Of a DNA stretch of 63,101 bases, positions 7,606 to 43,738 are shown in pieces. The notes under the pieces are model-generated. The model was not told the DNA's origin and did no database searches. It was given only the letters and a program-made list of their open reading frames with translations. The DNA comes from a virus: the IMG/VR virus record IMGVR_UViG_3300025083_002903, positions 1-63,101 of that record. One strand, given 5' to 3'. Each line of letters starts with the position of its first letter. Position 1 is the stretch's first letter. A program made the position numbers and the translations under genes.

Positions 7606-7917
7606 TTAAACTGCAGTAGACCCGTCCATATCAGGTTGAGCCATAACCCACGTATAGCACTTAGATAAAAAATCTTCACCTTCTAGTGCTTCGATATCTG
7701 TTAAATTAGCACTATATCTTTTAAAGTCAACTTCCCTAGTTTCATCTGTAGGTGTTGATGTAGCATAAGCTGATAAGTCAATCCCTACTTCAAATTTGTT
7801 TTCACTATGATCTGAACGTTGACGATTAATAGATACTGATGCCACTCTATAGTATGCGCCATTAAACGCAATACCAAATTGAGATGCGCCTTCTTCGATG
7901 TTATGTTGTATAGCCAT
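7606..7917 (-). CDS. Small virion-associated protein of unknown function
   Basis: I do not recognise a family for this 103-aa protein. It starts MAIQHNIEEGASQFG and is acidic, with likely beta content in the first half (AYYRVASVSINRQ) and a helical C-terminus (TDIEALEGEDFLSKCYTWVM). It is the first gene of a predicted late unit: an exact TATAAATA lies 45 bases upstream at 7962-7969, and TTTCTCC beside the start codon reads as GGAGAAA on the coding strand. It precedes the three propeller-like adhesins. Position and timing suggest a small structural, adaptor or fibre-assembly protein, but nothing in the sequence proves it. No cysteine motif, signal peptide or membrane segment is present. Confidence 0.6.
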   Translation of the reverse strand: MAIQHNIEEGASQFGIAFNGAYYRVASVSINRQRSDHSENKFEVGIDLSAYATSTPTDETREVDFKRYSANLTDIEALEGEDFLSKCYTWVMAQPDMDGSTAV

Positions 7918-7961: not shown

Positions 7962-7969
7962 TATTTATA
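7962..7969 (-). promoter_or_regulatory. T4-type late promoter octamer (exact TATAAATA)
   Basis: An exact minus-strand TATAAATA directly follows the TAA stop of the gene at 7970-10096, giving TAATATAAATA. It lies 45 bases before the ATG at 7917 and would drive the 103-aa gene, the three propeller paralogues, the LamG-like gene and the chaperone-like gene. Confidence 0.75.
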
Positions 7970-12026: not shown

Positions 12027-14561
12027 CTATGCATACGTCACCTCACTGGTCTGAATATTAGCAACCCAACGGATGTTATGAGAGGCTTCTCCTGTACAGG
12101 TAATTGTTAATGCGTTGTTCGTGTTGTCGGCCGAGAGAACTACAGTCCAACCATTACCGTCAGCAAATGTCTGTATGTTACTACTCACTAGAGTAGTTGT
12201 GCCGCCGTCATTCTTCAGCAAGCCTTTAATTTCCCAACCACCTTGATCCTGTGCGCCGTTTTGCATTGCTACTAGTGTACCTGAGAACATGATGCAAGTG
12301 TCAGAGGCTGCTACGATTTGGTTGTTAGTTGATGGTGATAGATTGTTGCTTGTCAAAACAGTTGCGGTTGCATCTGTAGTGTCTGCGACTAAAACAAATG
12401 AGCCGCCTTGAGCATCACCTTTTGTACCAAAGAAAATACCAGAAAATGCCATTTTTCCTTGCTGCTCTGTCTTCCCCCGAAGAATAGCTGCCGAATAACC
12501 ATGCTGTGCATTAGCATCAGTACCTATAGCCAAAGCTGACCCAACGGCTGTCGTTAAATAACCAACGGCTGTTGCACTTGTACCCGTAGCAGTACTGGTT
12601 TTACCGATTGCAACTGATCTTACGCCTGATGCAGTACCGTTTATGGCTATGGCATTTGTTTGTGAAGCCTTTGCTTGCTGGCCTATAGCAATACTATTAG
12701 CACCCTGTGCGCCGTAGGTTGAGGAGTTATTGCCAATTGCGGCTGCGAAACTTGTATTGCCTGATGCAGAACTTTTTCCTAGAGCGACTGCATATGTGCT
12801 GGTCGCCTGTGCTTGAAATCCAAATGCTGCGCTATCGGTTGCGCTTGCATAAGCACTTGATGCGATAGCCACGGATCTATAACCAGCCGCATTTCCCGCC
12901 GCAGCGGCAAAAGCCCCATTACCTCCAGCAGAAGCATAATGTCCAATTGCAATTGAATTGGTATTGGTGGCTGATGAATTTAGGCCGATGCTTACGGCAT
13001 CATTACCACTAGCGACTGGTTTTGTGCCAGTAGTATAATTTTCAGCGTAAAGATCAGAACCAGAACCTAGACTTGCTGCACTAGCATTTGGAAACACTTG
13101 CCATGTACTACCGTCATAGACAAATTCAACTTTTACATGTTGAATATCTAAAACAAAGTCTGCGGCGTCTCCTTCGATAGTAGAACCGTTTCTTCCAACA
13201 GTCAAGTTATTACTTGAGAAGTCATCTCCATCAGCGATTTGTATCGAATCTCCTGAGCTAGGAGATGCTGGTAGATTAATAGTAAATGCACCGCCATTTG
13301 TATCCGCAATAATAGCATCTAAGTGAACAGCAGTGTATGTAGCTGTCTTGGATAACCAACCGAACGTACCCTTCGATCCAGTATAACCAATATTACCTTG
13401 ATCGCCTTTATCACCCGTTCTTGCGAATGTAATAATAAGGTCTTCATTATTAGAGAAACTTGAAGCAGAGCCACTTACGTATGAACAGTTAACTATAAAA
13501 TAGCCAGTGCTTTCTGCTATTGATGTAATCGTAAACAATGAAAAATCGTCTGCATTTAAACGATTACTTATTCGGAAGTGACCTTTAATAGTACTTGTAC
13601 TATCATCAATAGTTCTTAAGAATGATTGAATATCTGTACTATTAATATCAGTATCGTCAATGTACATTGCTGTTACAGAAGAGTTAGTACCAACGTTTAA
13701 TCTTAGTTTACCAGCTCCAGGGTCTGAGTTTGCAGTTGTTGTACCGTCAAAAGTATAATTAAATGTTGCACCACCAAAGTTACCATCAGCGCCATCTGCG
13801 CCTGCAGGCCCAACATCAGAAATGTTTATCTGACCATTCATAGAAGCATGGAATTGGCAATAGTAATATAGTGTATTTGGTGCGTTATATGGAACGTTGT
13901 ATACTATTTGACCACTATCAGTACCGTTATTTGTTACGCCGTCACCTGAGCCTAGTGAGTTAGAAGAGTTATAGCCACCAGAAGCACTTTGAATATGAAA
14001 TGGATGACCCGGAGCGTTTACATCAAATATGTATGTAAAGCCTCTAAGTAATTCTAATGTGGGGTTGTTTGATCCGTCAATGGTATATGCGCCTACACCA
14101 CTATTAGTGACAGAGTATGTTCTAGCTCCGGCTTCACCTTTACTACCAGTATATCCTATCGGCCCTTGGTTCCCTTGGACACCTTGAATACCCTGGATGC
14201 CTTGGATACCTTGAATACCTTGGTCACCCTTTGAGGCCATCAAATCCCAATATGTAGTCCAAGAACCACCTACACCTGGCTCTGTTCCACTACTTGAGTT
14301 ATGACCATTAGTTGAGATATAAGTGTTACCATTATTCTCAACCGCAGATAGTTCTCCAGTTAGACCATAACCTTGACCAGTAGCCCAAGCACCTCTCCAA
14401 GTGATAGGTTCACCTTCGTCACCCCTAGAACCAGTGTAACCAATAGAAAGTGCTAATCCTGATTGTGCAATCCATTTAACACCATCCCAAGTCCAGACCG
14501 TAGTGCCGTCTGTGTGCGTATCGCTTATACTTGGGTTTGATGGAAAGTCTAGAGCAGCCAT
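12027..14561 (-). CDS. Multi-domain fibre: collagen-like, cupredoxin-like and YadA-like regions
   Basis: Domain order in this 844-aa protein is as follows. An N-terminal WDGVKW-type phage fibre tag (about 1-35); GYTGSRG; a small domain with WRGAW and WTTYW (about 52-106); collagen-like GxQGIQGIQGIQG triplets (about 111-135) ending GYTGSKG. A cupredoxin-like domain (about 157-248) has candidate copper ligands His186 or His189, Cys235, His238 and Met241. A beta domain (about 262-385) common in marine fibres is followed by a second GYTGSKG linker, a further beta domain, YadA-like repeats (about 520-690) and the shared C-terminal domain (about 705-844). It is the first gene of a late unit. The product is a fibre; copper binding is only predicted from spacing of the four residues. 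Confidence 0.75.
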   Translation of the reverse strand: MAALDFPSNPSISDTHTDGTTVWTWDGVKWIAQSGLALSIGYTGSRGDEGEPITWRGAWATGQGYGLTGELSAVENNGNTYISTNGHNSSSGTEPGVGGSWTTYWDLMASKGDQGIQGIQGIQGIQGVQGNQGPIGYTGSKGEAGARTYSVTNSGVGAYTIDGSNNPTLELLRGFTYIFDVNAPGHPFHIQSASGGYNSSNSLGSGDGVTNNGTDSGQIVYNVPYNAPNTLYYYCQFHASMNGQINISDVGPAGADGADGNFGGATFNYTFDGTTTANSDPGAGKLRLNVGTNSSVTAMYIDDTDINSTDIQSFLRTIDDSTSTIKGHFRISNRLNADDFSLFTITSIAESTGYFIVNCSYVSGSASSFSNNEDLIITFARTGDKGDQGNIGYTGSKGTFGWLSKTATYTAVHLDAIIADTNGGAFTINLPASPSSGDSIQIADGDDFSSNNLTVGRNGSTIEGDAADFVLDIQHVKVEFVYDGSTWQVFPNASAASLGSGSDLYAENYTTGTKPVASGNDAVSIGLNSSATNTNSIAIGHYASAGGNGAFAAAAGNAAGYRSVAIASSAYASATDSAAFGFQAQATSTYAVALGKSSASGNTSFAAAIGNNSSTYGAQGANSIAIGQQAKASQTNAIAINGTASGVRSVAIGKTSTATGTSATAVGYLTTAVGSALAIGTDANAQHGYSAAILRGKTEQQGKMAFSGIFFGTKGDAQGGSFVLVADTTDATATVLTSNNLSPSTNNQIVAASDTCIMFSGTLVAMQNGAQDQGGWEIKGLLKNDGGTTTLVSSNIQTFADGNGWTVVLSADNTNNALTITCTGEASHNIRWVANIQTSEVTYA
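13818..14093 (-). other. Cupredoxin-like domain inside the 844-aa fibre
   Basis: Residues 157-248 have strands and ligand spacing like a blue-copper fold: APGHPFHIQ early, then YYYCQFHASMNG, giving C-x2-H-x2-M. Plastocyanin-type sites use an early His plus Cys, His and Met near the C-terminus, so all four positions can be filled. The fold and metal binding are predicted, not shown. Confidence 0.6.
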
Positions 14562-14591: not shown

Positions 14592-14599
14592 TATTTATA
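14592..14599 (-). promoter_or_regulatory. T4-type late promoter octamer (exact TATAAATA)
   Basis: An exact minus-strand TATAAATA lies in the 52-bp gap between the 81-aa gene and the 844-aa fibre, 31 bases before the ATG at 14561. It would drive the three YadA-type fibres (12027-14561, 10098-12014, 7970-10096). Confidence 0.75.
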
Positions 14600-17244: not shown

Positions 17245-17706
17245 TTAAGTAATGAAGTAAATTGTAGAAGCTACAGGTGATCCAGGGAGTGATGACACAA
17301 CTTCAATGTCGTAGTCTGTAATTCCTGCGGTATCTTGAAACGTAAATGCACCTGCGCCGTTTGTTGTAAGAACTTGACCAGTAGTACCGTCTGCAATGCC
17401 TAAGTCAGATAAATCATCAGGAATTATATTAGTATTATCTGTTAAGTCAGAAAGGTCTGTTGGTATGTTACTTGATGCAGTGTAAGATATCACACCAGTT
17501 ACATTGTTGTATGATAAGTCTCCCGCAACACTAATAGCTAGTCTTGCTTTAGCATCTGTGAAAAATTTCACTGTAGCAGTTTCCTGAAGTCTATCAATGT
17601 CAATTGGTGTGACTTTTACCCATTTATCTCCAACCCACTTATATGTATCGTCACCTGAAACGACTTCTTGGTTAAGAGTGGGGCTGTTTGGTAATGCTAT
17701 AGCCAT
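17245..17706 (-). CDS. Short fibre-like protein
   Basis: This 153-aa protein begins MAIALPNSPTLNQEV with YKWVGDKWVKV, the short WxGxxW attachment tag also found at the start of the 844-aa fibre (there FPSNP...WTWDGVKW). The middle contains LSDLTDNTNIIPDDLSDLG and GTTGQVLTTNGAGAFTFQD, a motif shared with the fibre at the left edge. The last 25 residues (SSLPGSPVASTIYFIT) end the protein abruptly, as if a distal domain were absent. It is the first gene of a late unit, 43 bases after an exact TATAAATA. It may be a short fibre, a fibre base to which other products bind, or a truncated fibre; the sequence does not decide. Confidence 0.65.
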   Translation of the reverse strand: MAIALPNSPTLNQEVVSGDDTYKWVGDKWVKVTPIDIDRLQETATVKFFTDAKARLAISVAGDLSYNNVTGVISYTASSNIPTDLSDLTDNTNIIPDDLSDLGIADGTTGQVLTTNGAGAFTFQDTAGITDYDIEVVSSLPGSPVASTIYFIT

Positions 17707-17748: not shown

Positions 17749-17756
17749 TATTTATA
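17749..17756 (-). promoter_or_regulatory. T4-type late promoter octamer (exact TATAAATA)
   Basis: An exact minus-strand TATAAATA lies 43 bases before the ATG at 17706 and 18 bases past the end of the last sugar gene. It separates the sugar cassette from the fibre genes that follow. Confidence 0.75.
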
Positions 17757-23559: not shown

Positions 23560-23895
23560 TTAATCGCTTGCTAAATCATCCAAACTAAAATCATCCACAG
23601 AAGACTCAGTATCTGCACTAACATTGTTAAACGCTTCGTAGTGAGTATCAAAAATAGAATCACTAATGATATTAGGCATTTCAGAAACCAGTTGTGCTTT
23701 AGTATAACCTGCAGGCACTTTACTAGGCTCTGCAATTTCCCAAGAATGAGTGTACGTGTTAGCCCAAGCTGGATTGTCTCCTTCACCAGCATGAGCGTAT
23801 TCTACAGCGATATCCCATTGGGTTACGAATCCATCTGATTCTCTCACCGTTGGTGTCGCTTTAGTCAATGTTAAAGTGTGATCATACGTAGCCAT
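23560..23895 (-). CDS. Small acidic protein of unknown function, first gene of the sugar unit
   Basis: I cannot name a family for this 111-aa protein. It begins MATYDHTLTLTKATPTVRES, has probable beta strands (VTQWDIAVEYAHAG, YTHSWEIAEPS), then a helical stretch and an acidic tail (SVDDFSLDDLASD). An upstream CATAAATA octamer 42 bases from its start and a SD-like AGGAGA suggest late, efficient expression. It is followed 35 bases later by the GT9 gene with no promoter-like octamer between, so it is probably cotranscribed with the sugar cassette. It could be a small virion protein or an acceptor or partner of the sugar enzymes. That last idea is only suggested by position. Confidence 0.55.
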   Translation of the reverse strand: MATYDHTLTLTKATPTVRESDGFVTQWDIAVEYAHAGEGDNPAWANTYTHSWEIAEPSKVPAGYTKAQLVSEMPNIISDSIFDTHYEAFNNVSADTESSVDDFSLDDLASD

Positions 23896-34501: not shown

Positions 34502-35821
34502 TTAATCCTCGATTGCTAGAATGTATGGGGTAAGAACAGCGAACAGTGATCTATCAAATGTATTACCAGTGATAGTTCCGCTTTCACGATTAATAGTCAA
34601 ATCACCACCAATTCTAAAATCACCTTTGTGGTCTGTCGATGTAAAGTATACTAAGCCTTCGTTGTTTGCATCTTCTACTACTTCGTTTGCTTGAATTGGG
34701 AAAGCACCAGATTGTGGTGTGTCATAAACACCTGTACCTGAGCCAACATATTCGAAAGTAATACTAGAAGCTTGAATGAGACTTCTCTGATGAAATGTTA
34801 CTGCGTCTCCATTGCCAACGTCTAGCTCAAGAGGTTCTAACAAAGTAACATCATATTCGTTTGCATTCCCAGTTGCGGTTACACCTTCAACCGAGTAATA
34901 CTTAGTATCATTTGCAAACTTAACTGCTTCTGCGTAATTAGGTGCTGTTGATACAGTAATTGTGACTACAGTGCCACCTGCTGTGCCAGCTGCACTTGTT
35001 CCTGATTTAGAAAGAGAAGAAGATCCAGTTGCTTTAAGCCCAAAGTTGCCAAATGAACAGTTAGAGTTTGTAAGTGAACAATTGCCACCACTTTCACAAA
35101 GAACACCTACGTCACAAGAAACTGTGAAGATAGATACTAGTTGTGCATATCCTTTGTTTATTAGGTGTACACCCTTACCACCTGCATTAATTTGAGTGAA
35201 TGCATCTGATACCATTGAGCGAAGACCACCGACAAGGGATCCATCAATTTTCATACCAGTACCAGTTGTAGTAATAGATGAGCAATTTTGTACGTAAGGA
35301 GATGTAGTGATGTTACCAGCAGAAGGATTAAACGCTACAGCTGCAGCTCCAGACGTATGTCCTCTAAATGTTACACCAGTAACATGAGAAGCATTACTTA
35401 ATAGAAGCAAGTCATTAGTTGCTGTTTGACCAGAGATGTTTGTTGTTCTAAGGTTATCGCCAACGATTGATACGTTAGCTGGTACAACCACACCACCTGA
35501 TGTATTATCAAGAGTGTAGTCACCACTTTTTAAGAAGATAGTTGTACCTGAAGAAGCATTAGCTAGTGCTTCGTCTAGAGTTAAATAAGCTTCGGCTACA
35601 GTCGAACCATCATTAGCGTCATTACCGCTTTCACTAACGTAAAGAACATTGTCTGCTCTATCAGCAAGACCAACTTCTCTAATTGAAAGATTCCCACTAG
35701 CATCTCTTTTGAAGAACATCTTACCATCATGGGTGTTGATGGCAACTTCTCCAAGTTCTAGTTGTGCGGTCGAAGGTATAGCACCAGTAGTGGCGCTACG
35801 GCGTAACTTAATGGTTGACAT
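34502..35821 (-). CDS. Tail fibre-like protein with beta-helix region
   Basis: This 439-aa protein has the N-terminal attachment type MSTIKLRRSATTGAIPS...LELGEVAINTHDGKMFFKRD, of the kind found in Mtd-type phage tail proteins. From about residue 60, YVSESGNDANDGST precedes a region of short strands and Asn/Gly turns (VVVPANVSIVGDNLRTTNI, LLLLSNASHVTGVTFRG) typical of right-handed beta-helices. The C-terminus reads DFRIGGDLTINRESGTITG then FDRSLFAVLTPYIL, a closing module I associate with T4-like phage fibres. An exact TATAAATA lies 71 bases upstream, so it begins a unit. No catalytic residues are evident. It is likely a structural fibre or adhesin. Confidence 0.72.
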   Translation of the reverse strand: MSTIKLRRSATTGAIPSTAQLELGEVAINTHDGKMFFKRDASGNLSIREVGLADRADNVLYVSESGNDANDGSTVAEAYLTLDEALANASSGTTIFLKSGDYTLDNTSGGVVVPANVSIVGDNLRTTNISGQTATNDLLLLSNASHVTGVTFRGHTSGAAAVAFNPSAGNITTSPYVQNCSSITTTGTGMKIDGSLVGGLRSMVSDAFTQINAGGKGVHLINKGYAQLVSIFTVSCDVGVLCESGGNCSLTNSNCSFGNFGLKATGSSSLSKSGTSAAGTAGGTVVTITVSTAPNYAEAVKFANDTKYYSVEGVTATGNANEYDVTLLEPLELDVGNGDAVTFHQRSLIQASSITFEYVGSGTGVYDTPQSGAFPIQANEVVEDANNEGLVYFTSTDHKGDFRIGGDLTINRESGTITGNTFDRSLFAVLTPYILAIED

Positions 35822-35891: not shown

Positions 35892-35899
35892 TATTTATA
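35892..35899 (-). promoter_or_regulatory. T4-type late promoter octamer (exact TATAAATA)
   Basis: Exact minus-strand TATAAATA directly after the TAA stop of the 372-aa gene, 71 bases before the ATG at 35821. The spacing is longer than at other sites, so a longer leader is expected, or the start site lies elsewhere. Confidence 0.65.
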
Positions 35900-37018
35900 T
35901 TAGTATGTTCCACCATCAATAGTTCCTAAGAACTCTGCTGCAAATATTTTCTCAGTGCCTACACTCCAGTAGCCATTTGTTTCATCCCAGAATAGTGATA
36001 CATCATTAGCAGAACCACGATTTACAAGAATACCTGCATCTTGTGATGGAGCAGTACTTGCACTAAGATTACTATTGAGTTCGATAATATTATCTGCAAG
36101 AGCAATAGTTTCTGTATTGACTGTGGTTGTTGTACCTGATACGATAAGATTGCCAGCAATAGTAACTGTGCCAGCGGTAATGTCATTTGAGTATAAAGTA
36201 CCATCTACTGTTACATCATTGAATTGAACATCTGATGTAGTTTCGACTGCTTGACCAATACTAACTTCAACTGAATCACCAATAGTCTTAGTCGCAACAC
36301 CAGTTCCACCAGAAATTGTAAATGTATCAGTTAAGAGATTAACACCATTTGCGGGTGTTGTTCCATCATCTGTATCTGCCGCAATCGTAAGAGTAGTTGC
36401 AACACTTACTGTACCTGCTGCTGTAATACGACCTTGTTGATCAACTGTAAACGTTGGAATATTAGTTGTGTCACCATACGAACCTGGGGTTACTGCTGTA
36501 TCATCTAAGTTAAGAGTAGTTGTATTGTTAGGATCATCAAAGACAGATGTAATCGCTACACCACCAACAATTGTGCCACCAGTAACATCTTGAATGAATT
36601 CTGTAAGCGAAACGCTATCACTTCCAACGTACGGATTAATAATAACAACTTTACCAGTACCATTTGGTGAGAGTGTTAAATCACCATTAGCATTTGACGT
36701 TGTGATTGCGTTACCATCAATAGTAACATTATCAACGTTAAGAGCGTCAATCTTACTATCAGCATCTGTGACAATAGCACTAAGTGCTGTTAGAACACCT
36801 TCTTGATGATCTAAACGATCTGTGAAAAATTTACCACCGATAACATCTATCGACGTGGCTAAGCCAGTAACACCATCAACACCAGTACCGATAAATAATC
36901 TATCGCCATTGTCTTGCCATGTACCTGTACCATACGAGTAGCCTGATTCACCCGGATACAACCCTGTGGGCGCATTCGTCGTACTACTTCGTTTTATTCT
37001 AATTACTGAACCGGACAT
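35900..37018 (-). CDS. Tail fibre-like protein (372 aa)
   Basis: This protein has an N-terminal tag, MSGSVIRIKRSSTTNAPTGL, with a GDRLFIGTG element (about 38-46) as in fibre proteins of this phage group. The middle contains repeated beta segments (VTIDGNAITTSN, LTLSPNGTGKVVI). The C-terminal region has IAGNLIVSGTTTTVNTETI, LADNIIELNSN and VNRGSANDVSLFWDETNGYW. The last two also occur in the 1222-aa fibre as a related pair, so the two share a module. The product ends FLGTIDGGTY, like the next gene's INGGDY. It belongs to the unit that starts at the divergent promoter at 37609. A structural fibre or fibre-base role is inferred. Confidence 0.7.
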   Translation of the reverse strand: MSGSVIRIKRSSTTNAPTGLYPGESGYSYGTGTWQDNGDRLFIGTGVDGVTGLATSIDVIGGKFFTDRLDHQEGVLTALSAIVTDADSKIDALNVDNVTIDGNAITTSNANGDLTLSPNGTGKVVIINPYVGSDSVSLTEFIQDVTGGTIVGGVAITSVFDDPNNTTTLNLDDTAVTPGSYGDTTNIPTFTVDQQGRITAAGTVSVATTLTIAADTDDGTTPANGVNLLTDTFTISGGTGVATKTIGDSVEVSIGQAVETTSDVQFNDVTVDGTLYSNDITAGTVTIAGNLIVSGTTTTVNTETIALADNIIELNSNLSASTAPSQDAGILVNRGSANDVSLFWDETNGYWSVGTEKIFAAEFLGTIDGGTY

Positions 37019-37237
37019 TTAATAGTCTCCTCCGTTAATTTGAGTGCCTGGATTTTCTACTATGTTTTCTGCTTCCCAAAGTTCTGTCGTGGCATTATAT
37101 ATAAGGAGACCGCCACTTTGGGCGTTTGAAGCTTCAACATCGAATATATCACTCAATCTCAATGTGTTTGCGTTTAATCTATAATTCGTTACTAATAGTT
37201 TCTGATTAGGAGTAATTCTAGCTTTTATCTGTGACAT
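37019..37237 (-). CDS. Small virion protein (72 aa)
   Basis: This 72-aa protein starts MSQIKARITPNQKLLVTNYR, has LSDIFDVEASNAQSGGLLIY and ends NPGTQINGGDY. The segment GGLLIYNATTELWEA is of a type frequent in fibre and virion proteins of T4-like marine phages. It shares a single base with the 111-aa gene upstream (stop/start overlap at 37237) and directly precedes the 372-aa fibre, whose C-terminus ends in a similar GGTY. It could be a short fibre module, an adaptor or a fragment of a fibre. The sequence alone does not decide. Confidence 0.6.
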   Translation of the reverse strand: MSQIKARITPNQKLLVTNYRLNANTLRLSDIFDVEASNAQSGGLLIYNATTELWEAENIVENPGTQINGGDY

Positions 37238-37572
37238 TAGACACTCCTTGTTATACCTGGTGTTACTGTTGCAACCCCTTCGACAACTCGTAGGACAGTA
37301 CCACCGTTTGAGGTGATTTCAATGTCATATAAGTATCTGCCGGGTTCTAAATCTTTTGTTGTGTTACTACTCATCGATAGTGTGATTTGTCCACCGCCAT
37401 TGTTATCTGAACAGACAAAATCATGTGCTGTCGTAGAAGAATAGTTCTTCCTCATTTGAGCAAATGCATCCCATCCAGTTAAATCCCAAGCACCTCCTAC
37501 ATCATCTTCAACATCTACAATAGCTGAAAAATCAGTTCCTTGGTCTATTACTATATTTGCTTTGATTGCCAT
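37237..37572 (-). CDS. Small virion structural protein (Ig-like, BppU N-terminal-like)
   Basis: This 111-aa protein starts MAIKANIVIDQGTDFSAIVDV and continues WDLTGWDAFAQMRKNYSSTT, then ITLSMSSNTTKDLEPGRYLYDIEI. The order of strands and the LTGWxAxAQ[M/I]RK and GRYLYDIE motifs match small Ig-like phage proteins related to the BppU N-terminal domain, common in T4-like marine phages. It starts 37 bases after the minus-strand octamer of the divergent promoter region, so it heads a unit with the 72- and 372-aa genes. A baseplate or tail-surface component is likely. Confidence 0.68.
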   Translation of the reverse strand: MAIKANIVIDQGTDFSAIVDVEDDVGGAWDLTGWDAFAQMRKNYSSTTAHDFVCSDNNGGGQITLSMSSNTTKDLEPGRYLYDIEITSNGGTVLRVVEGVATVTPGITRSV

Positions 37573-37608
37573 ATTAGACTCTACTATTAGGTTATCTCTA
37601 TTACTTGA

Positions 37609-37616
37609 TATTTATA
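37609..37616 (-). promoter_or_regulatory. Minus half of a divergent late promoter pair (TATAAATA)
   Basis: The minus strand reads TATAAATA at 37616-37609, 37 bases before the ATG at 37572. It shares two bases with the plus-strand octamer at 37615-37622. The joint sequence TATTTATATAAATA is a perfect 14-bp palindrome. Confidence 0.75.
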
Positions 37617-37622
37617 TAAATA
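37615..37622 (+). promoter_or_regulatory. Plus half of a divergent late promoter pair (TATAAATA)
   Basis: The plus strand reads TATAAATA at 37615-37622, 39 bases before the ATG at 37661, with AAGGTG (37645-37650) as ribosome site. It is the only plus-strand octamer noted and serves the only plus-strand gene. Confidence 0.75.
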
Positions 37623-37660
37623 AAAACATACGAAACTCTTTTAAAAGGTGTAAAACAGTC

Positions 37661-40249
37661 ATGGCTGGAAAATATGTTCGTGTTGGTCTTAGAAGGGACA
37701 AGAATTTCTCTGACTTAGAAAGCACTTATTCGTCACTCGGTAATCTATTAAACAACTTAGCCCCTCCAGGAAAGTCGTTCATACCAGATGATATTCAAGT
37801 TCTCAATAACGTCTCTGAAGACTCTAACGTCACAAATGATAGCTTTTTAGAGTTAAAAGGTAATACTAGAACAGCAACTCAAATTCGATTTAGAACACCT
37901 ATTCAATTTTCATCTGCCTTTGAGACAGTTCCATTTACCGATGGATTCTCTTTCTTGAAGTCAGGAGAAGAGGTATTGTTTGAAACTGTTGGATCATCTA
38001 ATGCAGTTTATGATGCTATTACAGAAACTTATACTTATTTCTATAATGCAGTCATACTAACAAACTCTTCTACAGTTCCTTTCTCTGTTGACGAAGATTT
38101 GATCATTCAATCAACTGGTATTACTATTAGTGATATCGACCCTACGCAAGAAACTCTTGATAACTTCTTAATTGAGCCAAACATTACAATTAAAGACACT
38201 ATCGAAAATGCAAAAGTAATTACAGGTGATCCGCCTTACTTAGCAGGTGGTGATGGTCTAAAAGCTAAATTTTATCCATCTGATTCAATTGCTACAGCAG
38301 CACAAAGAAGTTCCAGTATTAGTGGTTACGAACTATTTAATTATGCTGAAGCTTATCTTGGTGGTGGTGCAGGGTTTCATTATGGACCATTTGATTTTTG
38401 GGAAAGTGGTTATTTTGGATTTGGTCCTTCAATCTACGACTCTCCTGAGTTTATCAATGGCCTTGGTGGTGTACAATGGGAAGGGTTTTTTGCACCGATT
38501 CCATATATCGTTGATAACAATTGGCAGATTGTGTGTAGCGGACTTATTATTATTGAACAAGATATAGATGGTAATAATAACTGGCAAAAAGTTCTTAACA
38601 TCCATGATAAAGAAAGAGAACTTGTATCTCAGACTTCTGGTGCTGTTACTACTATAACCTTATCGGATGATGATCTTATGAAAGTAGGTGTTGGTGATCA
38701 AGTCACATTCATAACATCACAAGGCAATATATTTAATACGTTTACAAAAGTCGATAACGTTGATTATCAGGGAAAGACTATCACTTTAGATCAAGCTGTA
38801 AATGTAGCTAATGGTGATATTATAAAAGTATCATTTCCTGTAGGTTTCCAGGATATCACCACACAAGTAAAACTATCCGTTCCTGGATTAAATGTCAAGA
38901 GAAAAGTTAGAATAAGTGTGTACTGGCCCAATGATGCTGGATACGATAGCTTTAGAAAAAGATGTAGCTTTGCATACATACAAGAATCCGCAACTCGACT
39001 ACCAGCTTCTTTCTTGTACACTACAGATTCAGTAGCAACTGCAAACACCAATGTAAATTCATTTGAGTATTTTTTAGATAACTATGTCAATCTAAGTAAT
39101 GATCGAACTACTGCTGCATTACAAGTAAACGATAAAGCAATTATAAGCTATGACCCACCTCTCACTTTTGCAAATAAAGTTAGTACTATACAAGTAGTGT
39201 ATATAGGTAATGGTGTGTTTTCATATGCAGGACTGGGCGGCGCACCTGTGTATCAGGGTGATAGAGTTATTCTCTCATTAGGTAACTCGTATCTACAGCT
39301 TCTAGCTATTGGCGACTCTCCTAATGAATCAGCATTCTATGTAGATGAAGAAGATGTAATTAATTACAACTCTGGCGCTGCAGCAGGAGAAGAAATTTCG
39401 GGTGATGCCAATACTTCAGGTGGACCATATTCGGGATTTCGTATAGACAATATTGGTCTTAAAGATATCTTTTTAAGATATAATAGCGCAGGTAATTTTG
39501 TTTCTATGCTAAGTGTATCAAATGAAGATGAACTTGCAAAAGATCAATTAGTTTATGCAATGAAGGGTAGTGGTACAACACTAGCAGATGAAGGTCCAGT
39601 TAGACTATCAACAATTAGTAAGTCCGCTGGAGAATATACACTTACTGTAGATGATCATTTTGGTGGGAGCTATGCAGATTTCTTAGGCGATACTAATCCA
39701 GATAATACAATACTACTTGTATATAAGGATAAGGCACTAGAAGACTTATCAAAGGTTAATTATTGTAATGGTGTTATAGGTCATTTGATTACAGCCGACG
39801 CCCTTTCTGGTGCAAATGAAATATTCTTAGACGATGTATCAGATGTTCAACAAAGCTATTATATTCAGTTTTCAGGTTACATCCCAGACGGCACTCAGAT
39901 TACAGGTGTTGATTCGGGAACAAACAAAATAACTTTATCAAACAATCTTACTAAGACGCTAAAACAAAATTATACAATTACTATTATTCCAGGTAACCCC
40001 GGAGCTGAGAGTTATGAGATTTGCGTATTACCTTTAGACACCGCACCACCATTTACTGGAACTGATACTGGACTTAAAACAGCATCGGGTGTAGAAAATA
40101 TTAAGACTAACGAACTATTATTCGATAATCTGTATATTAAAAATCTTATAGATGAAGATATTGGTAATCAGGAATATACTAAAACTATGAATATTACACA
40201 CGATAATGGAGTTGGTGTTAGAAAGGTGTATAAGCTTTTAGTCTTTTAA
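37661..40249 (+). CDS. Virion structural protein, the only plus-strand gene
   Basis: The start chosen is ATG at 37661 (MAGKYVRVGLRRDKNFSDL, 862 aa), with AAGGTG 10 bases before it. An earlier in-frame ATG at 37562 would overlap the minus-strand gene and its promoter and adds a non-conserved stretch. The N-terminus (DLESTYSSLGNLLNNLAPPG) resembles marine T4-like phage tail proteins. The body has beta-rich segments, several Asn/Gly turns and paired strands such as TITLDQAVNVANGDII and NKITLSNNLTKTL, which may be repeated modules. No enzymatic motif is seen. Its end overlaps the 3' end of the minus-strand 334-aa gene by four bases. It sits among baseplate/tail genes, so it is presumably a large tail or baseplate surface component. 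Confidence 0.72.
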   Translation: MAGKYVRVGLRRDKNFSDLESTYSSLGNLLNNLAPPGKSFIPDDIQVLNNVSEDSNVTNDSFLELKGNTRTATQIRFRTPIQFSSAFETVPFTDGFSFLKSGEEVLFETVGSSNAVYDAITETYTYFYNAVILTNSSTVPFSVDEDLIIQSTGITISDIDPTQETLDNFLIEPNITIKDTIENAKVITGDPPYLAGGDGLKAKFYPSDSIATAAQRSSSISGYELFNYAEAYLGGGAGFHYGPFDFWESGYFGFGPSIYDSPEFINGLGGVQWEGFFAPIPYIVDNNWQIVCSGLIIIEQDIDGNNNWQKVLNIHDKERELVSQTSGAVTTITLSDDDLMKVGVGDQVTFITSQGNIFNTFTKVDNVDYQGKTITLDQAVNVANGDIIKVSFPVGFQDITTQVKLSVPGLNVKRKVRISVYWPNDAGYDSFRKRCSFAYIQESATRLPASFLYTTDSVATANTNVNSFEYFLDNYVNLSNDRTTAALQVNDKAIISYDPPLTFANKVSTIQVVYIGNGVFSYAGLGGAPVYQGDRVILSLGNSYLQLLAIGDSPNESAFYVDEEDVINYNSGAAAGEEISGDANTSGGPYSGFRIDNIGLKDIFLRYNSAGNFVSMLSVSNEDELAKDQLVYAMKGSGTTLADEGPVRLSTISKSAGEYTLTVDDHFGGSYADFLGDTNPDNTILLVYKDKALEDLSKVNYCNGVIGHLITADALSGANEIFLDDVSDVQQSYYIQFSGYIPDGTQITGVDSGTNKITLSNNLTKTLKQNYTITIIPGNPGAESYEICVLPLDTAPPFTGTDTGLKTASGVENIKTNELLFDNLYIKNLIDEDIGNQEYTKTMNITHDNGVGVRKVYKLLVF

Positions 40250-41250
40250 GGTACTAACGAGCATAGTAAGTTATACTCTTCACCGTTAACTAAATTACCA
40301 AGATCATCTACAAACTGCGTTTGCAATAGTATCTTATGAGTAAAGTCTGTATAGGATTCAGTTGATCCTACTGGAGTTACTGCGATTGTATTGAGTCTTG
40401 GATTAGTTGCAGTTAAGTTATTAACATTAGTTTGAGTAGATGTTGTAATAGTTTCACTTGTCAAATTGTCAATTGACCAAGGATCGGTGTTATTACTAAA
40501 TGCTCTAGCTTTTGAATATATCAATCTACCTTCGGAATCAAATGTAGGATTATCATTTTCATCTAATACAACTTTATCTGAAATAATAAACAGACCAGGT
40601 GAAGTGTCTGACGGAGATAAGTCAGCAGTATTGATAATTGTTACAGTACCATTTAAATTAAATTCGCTATTCACTACATTGGTTTTTGTAGTAAATAAAG
40701 TTGTGCTTCTTTTTAAAGCAAATGCGTCCATAGTGGGTCTAACTTGATCACCAAATTCTATTATACTAGTGTCTCTAAAAGTAGTAGCAGGTATATCAAC
40801 TTCTTCATCAGAATTTAATATCTCTTCGAGAACAGTTGGGTCGATAGTTTGAAGAACATCGGGACTCATATTTTGGATGTTAGCTTTAGTTACGCCTTCG
40901 GATCTACGCAAGTCATCAGTGATGACTGTAAGATTAGCACCCAATTCATCAACTAACTCAAACTCATCAACGCCGTTTGAATTTACAACTGTGTATGATG
41001 TACCATCATGTGTAATAACAGTTCTATTAGAAAATGCAATGTTTTGCTTACTCTTAACTCTAAGTTTAGTAGTGTTTGGAATTAACTCAACTTGAGTTGG
41101 TCTTAAGACACTGAAGTTTCTAAGATTGTTAACGAATAGCGAAATGTCATTAGAACGACCAGCACCGGCAAGATTGTCCAATGCAGTAGCATCCTTAGAA
41201 AAGCTATCTGATTCTGCTAAGTTTAAATCTCTTGCAAACCCTTGAGGCAT
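40246..41250 (-). CDS. Virion structural protein (334 aa)
   Basis: This protein starts MPQGFARDLNLAESDSFSKD and has mostly beta pattern with several Asp/Asn-rich loops (e.g. SNGVDEFELVDELGANLTVI). Near the middle, PDVLQTIDPTVLEEILNSDEEV looks like a short helix pair, and the C-terminus is beta (FTHKILLQTQFVDDLGNLV). I do not recognise a named family, but it is in the giant structural-gene block, 13 bases after the leucine-rich-repeat gene. Its end overlaps the convergent plus-strand gene by four bases. It is the last gene of the unit starting at 54327-54343. A tail or baseplate component is the likely role. Confidence 0.62.
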   Translation of the reverse strand: MPQGFARDLNLAESDSFSKDATALDNLAGAGRSNDISLFVNNLRNFSVLRPTQVELIPNTTKLRVKSKQNIAFSNRTVITHDGTSYTVVNSNGVDEFELVDELGANLTVITDDLRRSEGVTKANIQNMSPDVLQTIDPTVLEEILNSDEEVDIPATTFRDTSIIEFGDQVRPTMDAFALKRSTTLFTTKTNVVNSEFNLNGTVTIINTADLSPSDTSPGLFIISDKVVLDENDNPTFDSEGRLIYSKARAFSNNTDPWSIDNLTSETITTSTQTNVNNLTATNPRLNTIAVTPVGSTESYTDFTHKILLQTQFVDDLGNLVNGEEYNLLCSLVP

Positions 41251-41263
41251 TGACTATCTCCTA

Positions 41264-43738
41264 TTACACTCTTATTGTCCATCTACGAATTTGTGTCAAA
41301 ACATTGTATTGTTCTTGCACAGTAGTAGAGAAGTTTAAGAGGTCGTTTAAACTAAATCCGTTATTAGACATATCAAATCTTCTATTCCAAGTATTTGTAG
41401 TATTTAGATGAATTTGATAGATATCGTTAATTATAGCGGCTCCAGCATCTACTGTTAAATTGTTATTATTTACGTAGTAATATCTTAAACTTGTGTTTGA
41501 AGATATTGATCCCGCTGAGTAGCTACTAAAATTATTACTCGCTAGATGACAATAATATAGTCTTGGACAAGTTGCAAAGCTAGGTAAAGACCCAGTAAAG
41601 TTATTATTTTGAAGTTGAAAGTATCTAATATTTGGTAAAGATGGTGATGGTAGACCACCACTTAAATTATTGTTATAGAGATACAAGTATCCAACACGTG
41701 AATTATTAAATGCAGGAGCTGATCCAGTTAAATCGTTGTTACCTAAATTACACCAAGATAGAGAAGGCATTTCTGCCAAGTTAGTTAATCCACCTGTGAT
41801 ATTAGTATTTGAAATAGTTATACTACTTAAAGATTTATTAGAGTTGAAGTTTGGTAAACTACCTACCATGTTACTATTGCCATACACATTTAAACTATTA
41901 ATACTTGCTGTTTGTGCAAATACTAAGCTGTCAAAGAATGAGTTCACACCATCACCAAGTTGACTACTACTTATAGTCAAACTACGTAGATTACCAGTTC
42001 CAGAGAAAGTTTGTCCACCAAGTACACCACTAAGTTTAGTATTGTAAAGATTTAAACTTGATAGAGATGGTAGGTTTTGAAATGCTAGTGAAACGTCACC
42101 AGTTACAGGATTACTAGACAAGTTGATAGTGTTTAGACTACCACATCCACTAAACACACCTTGAACACTAGAGCTACCTCTTAGTGTTTGTAAGTACTGA
42201 TGAGTGTAGCTAGTTATAGATTGACACCCACTAACAACAACTAAATTGTGATTGTTTCTTCTACTATAGAAAGTTTTCAATCTACCAGTATCAGTTCCAC
42301 CGTCTCCTGCTGCCGCAAGAGTGATATCAATTTCTTGTGACCCATCCCACCCAGCTTTAATATTTCTATTGGTGCTAGTGCTTTGTGTGATACTTTCAAT
42401 ATAAATATTTTCTAAGTTTTTTGCCTTCATAACAGATTCGTCGAGATATCTATATTGTTGAAATCTTACATCATAGTCTGTTAAGGAAGTGTTCTCTTGA
42501 GTTGTAGGGTCGACATAAATTTTTGGCGTTGGGCCCAATGAAAACATTCTAGTAGATGGTTGATTGCCTCTAAACTGTACTCTTTGTAGAGCTGTTAAAT
42601 CATCGTTTAGATAGTTTTTAGATAGGTCTATTGTGCTATTATCAGAAAAACAATTATTCATTGTAATTCGTTCAATCGTGCCAGGCAGTCTACTCAATTG
42701 TTGTGCAGCTGTTCTAGTTGATCTGGTGAATGGGTTTGATGTACAATCTAATATTTCTAATCCGGGTGATATGTAATTTAAATCAGGCAACTCTATAAGT
42801 TGGTTATTAGAAATATCTAGATTACGTAAACCAGTTGCTTGCGTTCTAGAGAACTCAAACATATTAAGGTTTTTAAGTTTTAGTAATTGAATTTTTCTAG
42901 GGTCATTAAAGAATTCTAATTGCAATGATGCTGAGCCATTGCCAAAGTATGATATGCCAAGCCCACCAGTATTTTGAACGTTCTCAAATGGTAGAAAGAT
43001 ATTATCATCTAAGTTATAAATTGTCCATGTAGGAGCGGGATCAGCTGCTCCGTTCGTAACAGTATGGTTCAAGTTATTTGTAGTAATCGTTTCTGCTACA
43101 ACTTTAAACTTCATGGGTATGCCACGCATAGCAAGAAACTTCTCAATAGTACCGTTAACATTTAAAGAAACTAAATGTGTGGGTACTTCTGCAGCAAATC
43201 TTTTTAATTGTGGTTCAACAGTCGTTGCCAAAGAAGTAACATCTAATACTGAAATTGGATCGCCATTAACATCTGTTTGATTTGGATTAGGTGTAATCTC
43301 TAAATCACCCTTATAGAAGATCGGCGCAGTTACATCAAAATCATCAAACGAAGACCAAGATGAAATTCTAGACGTTGATATATCGGCTGAACGTACTATA
43401 TCATTGTAGTAATCATAATAATCATATTTAATTGCTCTTGCTAAAAATTGATCATCTACTACAACGTTACTGTTTATAGTCTCGGTAGTAGTTTCGATAC
43501 CATTCATCAAAACTAAGTATTTTGCCATAGCGATAGATACTGAATCGTATGTCTTTTTAATATCAAAGTCTGCACCGGATAATGTAATAATGTCCCCTGC
43601 TGTGACACCCTCATCGAATGTACCAGATATTAAAGACAAATCAGCTAATCTTAAACCCATATTTTCTAAAGCTAGAAACTCATCTTGAATTTCAGAGAAG
43701 CTAAAGTTAACATTCAAACCGTAGTAAAACTGTGCCAT
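41264..43738 (-). CDS. Leucine-rich-repeat virion protein (824 aa)
   Basis: This protein starts MAQFYYGLNVNFSFSEIQDEF. Roughly residues 290-790 carry many ~20-24-residue leucine-rich repeats such as LRNLDISNNQLIELP, LSSLNLYNTKLSGVL, LSWCNLGNNDLTGSAP, IRYFQLQNNNFTGSLP and LYYCHLASNNFSS. The N-L-x-G-x-x-P pattern is the 'plant-type' LRR. The first ~280 residues are a separate beta domain, and the last ~40 (LLNFSTTVQEQYNVL) a helical cap. LRRs form curved solenoids used for protein or glycan binding. In a virion protein this suggests a surface recognition or receptor-binding role. It shares one base with the 1176-aa gene (TAATG) and is cotranscribed with it. Confidence 0.8.
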   Translation of the reverse strand: MAQFYYGLNVNFSFSEIQDEFLALENMGLRLADLSLISGTFDEGVTAGDIITLSGADFDIKKTYDSVSIAMAKYLVLMNGIETTTETINSNVVVDDQFLARAIKYDYYDYYNDIVRSADISTSRISSWSSFDDFDVTAPIFYKGDLEITPNPNQTDVNGDPISVLDVTSLATTVEPQLKRFAAEVPTHLVSLNVNGTIEKFLAMRGIPMKFKVVAETITTNNLNHTVTNGAADPAPTWTIYNLDDNIFLPFENVQNTGGLGISYFGNGSASLQLEFFNDPRKIQLLKLKNLNMFEFSRTQATGLRNLDISNNQLIELPDLNYISPGLEILDCTSNPFTRSTRTAAQQLSRLPGTIERITMNNCFSDNSTIDLSKNYLNDDLTALQRVQFRGNQPSTRMFSLGPTPKIYVDPTTQENTSLTDYDVRFQQYRYLDESVMKAKNLENIYIESITQSTSTNRNIKAGWDGSQEIDITLAAAGDGGTDTGRLKTFYSRRNNHNLVVVSGCQSITSYTHQYLQTLRGSSSVQGVFSGCGSLNTINLSSNPVTGDVSLAFQNLPSLSSLNLYNTKLSGVLGGQTFSGTGNLRSLTISSSQLGDGVNSFFDSLVFAQTASINSLNVYGNSNMVGSLPNFNSNKSLSSITISNTNITGGLTNLAEMPSLSWCNLGNNDLTGSAPAFNNSRVGYLYLYNNNLSGGLPSPSLPNIRYFQLQNNNFTGSLPSFATCPRLYYCHLASNNFSSYSAGSISSNTSLRYYYVNNNNLTVDAGAAIINDIYQIHLNTTNTWNRRFDMSNNGFSLNDLLNFSTTVQEQYNVLTQIRRWTIRV

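Follow-up and report, generated by a model that had tools for sequence, protein, structure and literature searches.

The window examined here is the whole of a 63,101-bp viral record (GC 37.8%) from a marine T4-like myovirus, whose closest annotated relatives are Kyanoviridae cyanophages, pelagiphages and methylophages. Its tail-fibre and virion genes lie nearly all on the minus strand, and the sole large plus-strand ORF, gene B (37661–40249, 862 aa), sits inverted inside this long leftward block. Facing it is gene A (37237–37572, minus strand, 111 aa), which leads the leftward unit and matches phrog_1084/phrog_3304, annotated as L-shaped tail fibre assembly; a gap of 88 bp (24% GC) separates the gene A ATG (37572) from that of gene B (37661). 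The gene B product, from a family with the N-terminus KYxKFGLRADKNLxDL and the C-terminus IPLNTAPPF, is probably a virion or tail-fibre protein. Searches of PDB and Pfam found no relatives of it, and its predicted structure (mean pLDDT 42) was too poor for use. The minus-strand gene at 35900–37018 matches phrog_15769, as does the C-terminal part of gene B, weakly, and the two may share a common domain family. At its far end the gene B stop overlaps that of the convergent minus-strand gene at 40246–41250 by 4 bp (40246–40249), and beyond, at 41264–43738 in the virion-gene region, an 824-aa protein with leucine-rich repeats is encoded.

Opposed late promoter boxes between genes A and B

The A/B gap holds a perfect 14-bp palindrome, TATTTATATAAATA (37609–37622), present as a single copy in the entire record. 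It consists of two back-to-back late promoter boxes fused with a 2-bp overlap: an exact TATAAATA at 37609–37616 on the minus strand, for gene A and the minus-strand tail-fibre block, and an exact TATAAATA at 37615–37622 on the plus strand, for gene B, which is conserved among relatives. The palindrome, the two bases that its boxes have in common (TA, 37615–37616) and its location between the start of the minus-strand unit and the only plus-strand gene had all been recognized in a first-pass annotation of the sequence, and each of these points was borne out. The distances to the two start codons given there, 37 and 39 bases, are correct as coordinate differences; the bases actually intervening number 36 and 38.

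T4-type late promoters direct initiation about 6 bp beyond the box and depend on gp55, gp33 and gp45. Cyanophage promoters of this one-way type use NATAAATA as the box in place of TATAAATA (PMC2984593 and PMC2988020), and both boxes of the palindrome are exact matches to the box, TATAAATA or NATAAATA, expected of a T4-type late promoter upstream of late genes. In T4 one 8-bp box, spanning −13 to −6, makes up the promoter (PMC1524935), and on this placement transcription is predicted to start near 37603 for the minus-strand box (31-nt leader) and near 37628 for the plus-strand box (33-nt leader). The predicted starts are 25 bp apart, compared with 23 bp for the 12-bp form described below.

By count, TATAAATA is not enriched in the window (8 observed, 9.1 expected), so that numbers alone are uninformative and location and comparative tests were used instead. 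Under a first-order Markov model the 14-mer is expected 0.003 times in the window, and a plus-strand TATAAATA suitably spaced from the gene B start 0.004–0.015 times. All five minus-strand copies, which are in a virion-gene region, lie 30–70 nt upstream of minus-strand genes, in zones that make up 4% of the window, for which the chance is about 1e-7. One-way late promoters are formed by the copies at 35892–35899 (upstream of 34502–35821), 17749–17756 (upstream of 17245–17706), 14592–14599 (upstream of 12027–14561) and 7962–7969 (upstream of 7606–7917). The copy at 37615 is the only plus-strand TATAAATA outside genes and is 38 nt from gene B; three further genes, at 23560, 29605 and 51415, are preceded by copies of CATAAATA. 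This placement of TATAAATA and CATAAATA indicates that T4-type late promoter grammar holds in the window. The palindrome shares with the one-way promoters an identical 8-bp box and a similar distance to the start codon but differs from them in having two outward-facing boxes with bases in common.

Conservation of the junction among relatives

Relatives of gene A were found at 79 loci, and in one group of these TATTTATAAATA precedes gene A with a divergent gene beyond it. TATTTATAAATA is a 12-bp palindrome made of the same two boxes with four bases in common, and the divergent genes beyond it are homologous to gene B (25–29% identity over the length, with conserved ends). A search with the gene B protein, which took no account of the promoter, yielded 73 loci, 70 of them with a readable start. 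Where gene B faces gene A, TATTTATAAATA was present at the junction in 43/43 database loci, at matching distances. In 16 of the 70 loci gene B faces a different gene, and here both boxes are present, 5 or 8 bp apart; at one further locus they are 43 bp apart, and at two neither box occurs. In the remaining arrangement, gene B following a codirectional gene (8/70), the reverse box is absent throughout. The relatives with boxes split by 5 or 8 bp and another divergent gene include L129, L136 and L140–L153; in L142 the divergent gene product has an N-terminus with a weak match to a tail-fibre connector family. Four of the codirectional loci (L102, L104, L108 and L112) have a 12-mer elsewhere, where the plus-strand cassette that includes gene B begins, its divergent neighbour in L102 (12-mer at about 1302–1313) being a head-tail adaptor of the Ad2 family.

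The association persists after dereplication. When junctions were grouped at 50% protein identity, the reverse box was present in 26 of 27 divergent groups vs none of five codirectional ones (p = 3e-5); grouping by gapped DNA identity was dropped as it merged unrelated AT-rich sequences. The 12-mer occurs exactly once in each of the 41 contigs with the junction, always at the junction, and its control, the same 12-mer read backwards and hence of equal composition, is found in none. The exact 14-mer is absent from these 41 contigs, and its occurrence at an A/B junction is therefore particular to this window. Among late promoters at the relatives' loci with no detected divergent partner, 116 of 123 have no reverse box; of the seven exceptions two are truncated where their contig ends and four stand beside another divergent gene.

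These counts bear on the reading that one direction only is a promoter and that the second box arises by accident from the AT-rich symmetry of the site. Since TATAAATA begins with TATA, just four or six more upstream bases suffice to finish the palindrome, and one locus (L009, 4963–4974) retains the 12-mer upstream of gene A despite lacking gene B and having a codirectional gene on that side. Against it stand the reverse box in all but one of the divergent groups, its absence from codirectional gene B junctions and from most one-way promoters, and the split forms, in which both boxes are kept although the palindrome is interrupted; we regard this reading as very improbable. L009, possibly a case of recent gene B loss, suggests that a reverse box can outlast its gene or has another role. 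With that one clear exception, the element lies between divergent genes and its reverse box is tied to divergence.

Perfect dyad symmetry is also common in operators, and on that ground the palindrome could be bound by a protein dimer, or fold into a hairpin, instead of acting as a promoter. Recognition by a dimer requires constant spacing, and the offset between the boxes varies (5, 7, 12, 15 and 50) while the late consensus and its orientation are kept, which disfavours such a site; a hairpin of a 14-mer consisting purely of A and T would be expected to be weak. Both forms of this proposal seem extremely improbable. The variable box spacing, together with the tie between reverse box and gene divergence, led us to discard the operator, the hairpin and the accidental second box alike.

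A broader scan of viral contigs gave a modest excess over control and was for this reason not used as main evidence: among the matches listed, the 12-mer lay between divergent ORF pairs in 10/114 cases vs 2/105 for the reversed control (p = 0.035), and for the 14-mer near an ATG the excess of divergent pairs among the matches listed was not significant. The exact 14-mer was seen between other divergent gene pairs, among the matches listed, in L223, L241, L263 and L195, where some neighbours have virion-type family matches. Nucleotide and protein searches found no homologous junction in cultured phages; in the three cultured Kyanoviridae inspected, Melnitz-1, HTVC008M and S-SRM01, the gene A relative is codirectional with its neighbour and has a one-way box.

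Precedents in T4 and Escherichia coli

The T4 genome contains one copy of the 12-mer (116450–116461), located in the 50-bp gap between the divergent baseplate genes 26 and 51, and the same 12-mer is present at 26/51 in eight of the nine Straboviridae examined, T4 included. The exception, Krischvirus FL04, has no fused form at this junction, and in T4 the junction has a second leftward box. Overlapping promoters at the T4 baseplate cluster were reportedly described by Scarlato and colleagues in 1989 as driving its divergent transcription. The T4 junction thus resembles that of the window in its fused, opposed TATAAATA boxes, short gap and divergent late virion genes but differs in that its boxes have 4 bp in common (12-mer) rather than 2 bp (14-mer), and in its flanking genes. 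BLASTP detected no similarity between gene A and gp26 or between gene B and gp51; the two junctions hold the same kind of element but do not appear to be one locus by descent, and because their genes are unrelated the arrangement appears to have arisen repeatedly.

Bidirectional promoters built on the symmetry of the −10 element have been described in E. coli, where the two starts are commonly 23 bp apart and the directions interfere solely under strong activity of one of them (Warman, Grainger and colleagues; PMC12825309). They are like the palindrome in that a symmetric TATA element is read both ways and steric exclusion is expected, and their common separation is the value predicted for the 12-mer, while that predicted for the 14-mer of the window is 25 bp. 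The E. coli promoters rely on sigma70 with an optional −35 element, whereas the window promoter would use a phage late sigma with sliding-clamp activation and no −35 element. An element common to boxes on both strands is what characterizes a symmetry-based bidirectional promoter, and this is found in the palindrome and is conserved. With the reported T4 precedent and the E. coli promoters in hand, the element belongs to a kind already known.

Proposed polymerase loading and possible competition at the fused boxes

In our view the palindrome very likely serves this marine T4-like myovirus as a two-way late promoter, on which polymerase with a gp55-type sigma could load in either direction. The proposal in the first-pass annotation of two opposed, overlapping late promoters draws strong support from the relatives, from the link to gene divergence and from the T4 26/51 junction. 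The direct basis of this reading is the sequence itself, its conservation, its association with divergent genes and its recurrence at T4 26/51; from these we infer use in both directions, the start sites and mutual exclusion. Three observations count against it: L009, the 14-mer that at this junction is confined to the window, and FL04 without the fused form.

The existence of such a palindrome follows from the late box beginning with self-complementary TATA, so that opposed boxes can overlap by TATA or by TA; by computation, outward-facing TATAAATA copies can overlap by 4 or 2 bases only, and one TA added to the core converts the 12-mer into the 14-mer. For a T4 late promoter the 8-bp box is sufficient, with no −35 element (PMC2988020), and gp55 reads flipped nontemplate bases at −12, −9 and −8, with the DNA opening from −12 to +2 (PMC7892883). 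RNA polymerase carrying the presumed gp55-type late sigma would load in either orientation on the symmetric TATA element, and transcription would begin about 12 bp to each side of the palindrome centre, on the left running into gene A with the tail-fibre block and on the right into the inverted gene B. The junction would thereby have two tasks, starting gene B and restarting the leftward block, both of which a symmetric element could perform compactly. Known polymerase footprints make it plausible that simultaneous use is sterically impossible, as had been suggested at first pass; one polymerase would probably exclude the other on any given DNA copy, so that each copy would fire one way at a time, and both units would be expressed across the many replicated genomes.

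It had further been suggested that the site acts as a switch or balance between the two units, for which the comparison gives no support. In its fullest form this reading holds that the shared bases force a competition that sets the ratio of the gene A block to gene B, with selection acting on the coupling. The overlap is retained in all A/B junctions found and at T4 26/51, and in E. coli the two directions of such promoters do compete under strong activation (PMC12825309). Other gene B junctions, however, keep both boxes unfused, 5 or 8 bp apart and in one case 43 bp, which indicates that overlap is not essential; where the boxes are fused, the overlap differs in length (2 or 4 bp), the analysis identified neither an operator nor a regulator, and compactness alone could account for the overlap, the T4 gap being just 50 bp. 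The two shared bases of the window appear to be nothing special, four being common to the boxes in most relatives. Given the many genome copies present late in infection, and interference in E. coli only under strong one-way activation, a dedicated switch would not be needed, and we consider one unlikely. A wider conjecture, to which we likewise give little credence, is that fused late promoters arise again and again in T4-like phages, at every point where a late operon is interrupted by an inverted gene or cassette, that polymerase exclusion would fix the ratio of two virion components, and that slippage in the central (TA)n tract, with its two, three or more units, might tune this ratio through tract length.

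As a probable bidirectional late promoter, the A/B palindrome offers a comparative case of how a phage late promoter consisting of one 8-bp box can become two-way through symmetry, and it indicates that two-way late promoters arose both in T4 and in marine T4-like phages, at junctions whose genes are unrelated. The idea of the symmetry-based bidirectional promoter, described for sigma70 of the host, would thereby extend to a sigma factor encoded by a phage. The natural variants of the junction, with overlaps of 4 and 2 bp and gaps of 5, 8 and 43 bp, are well suited to tests of polymerase competition.
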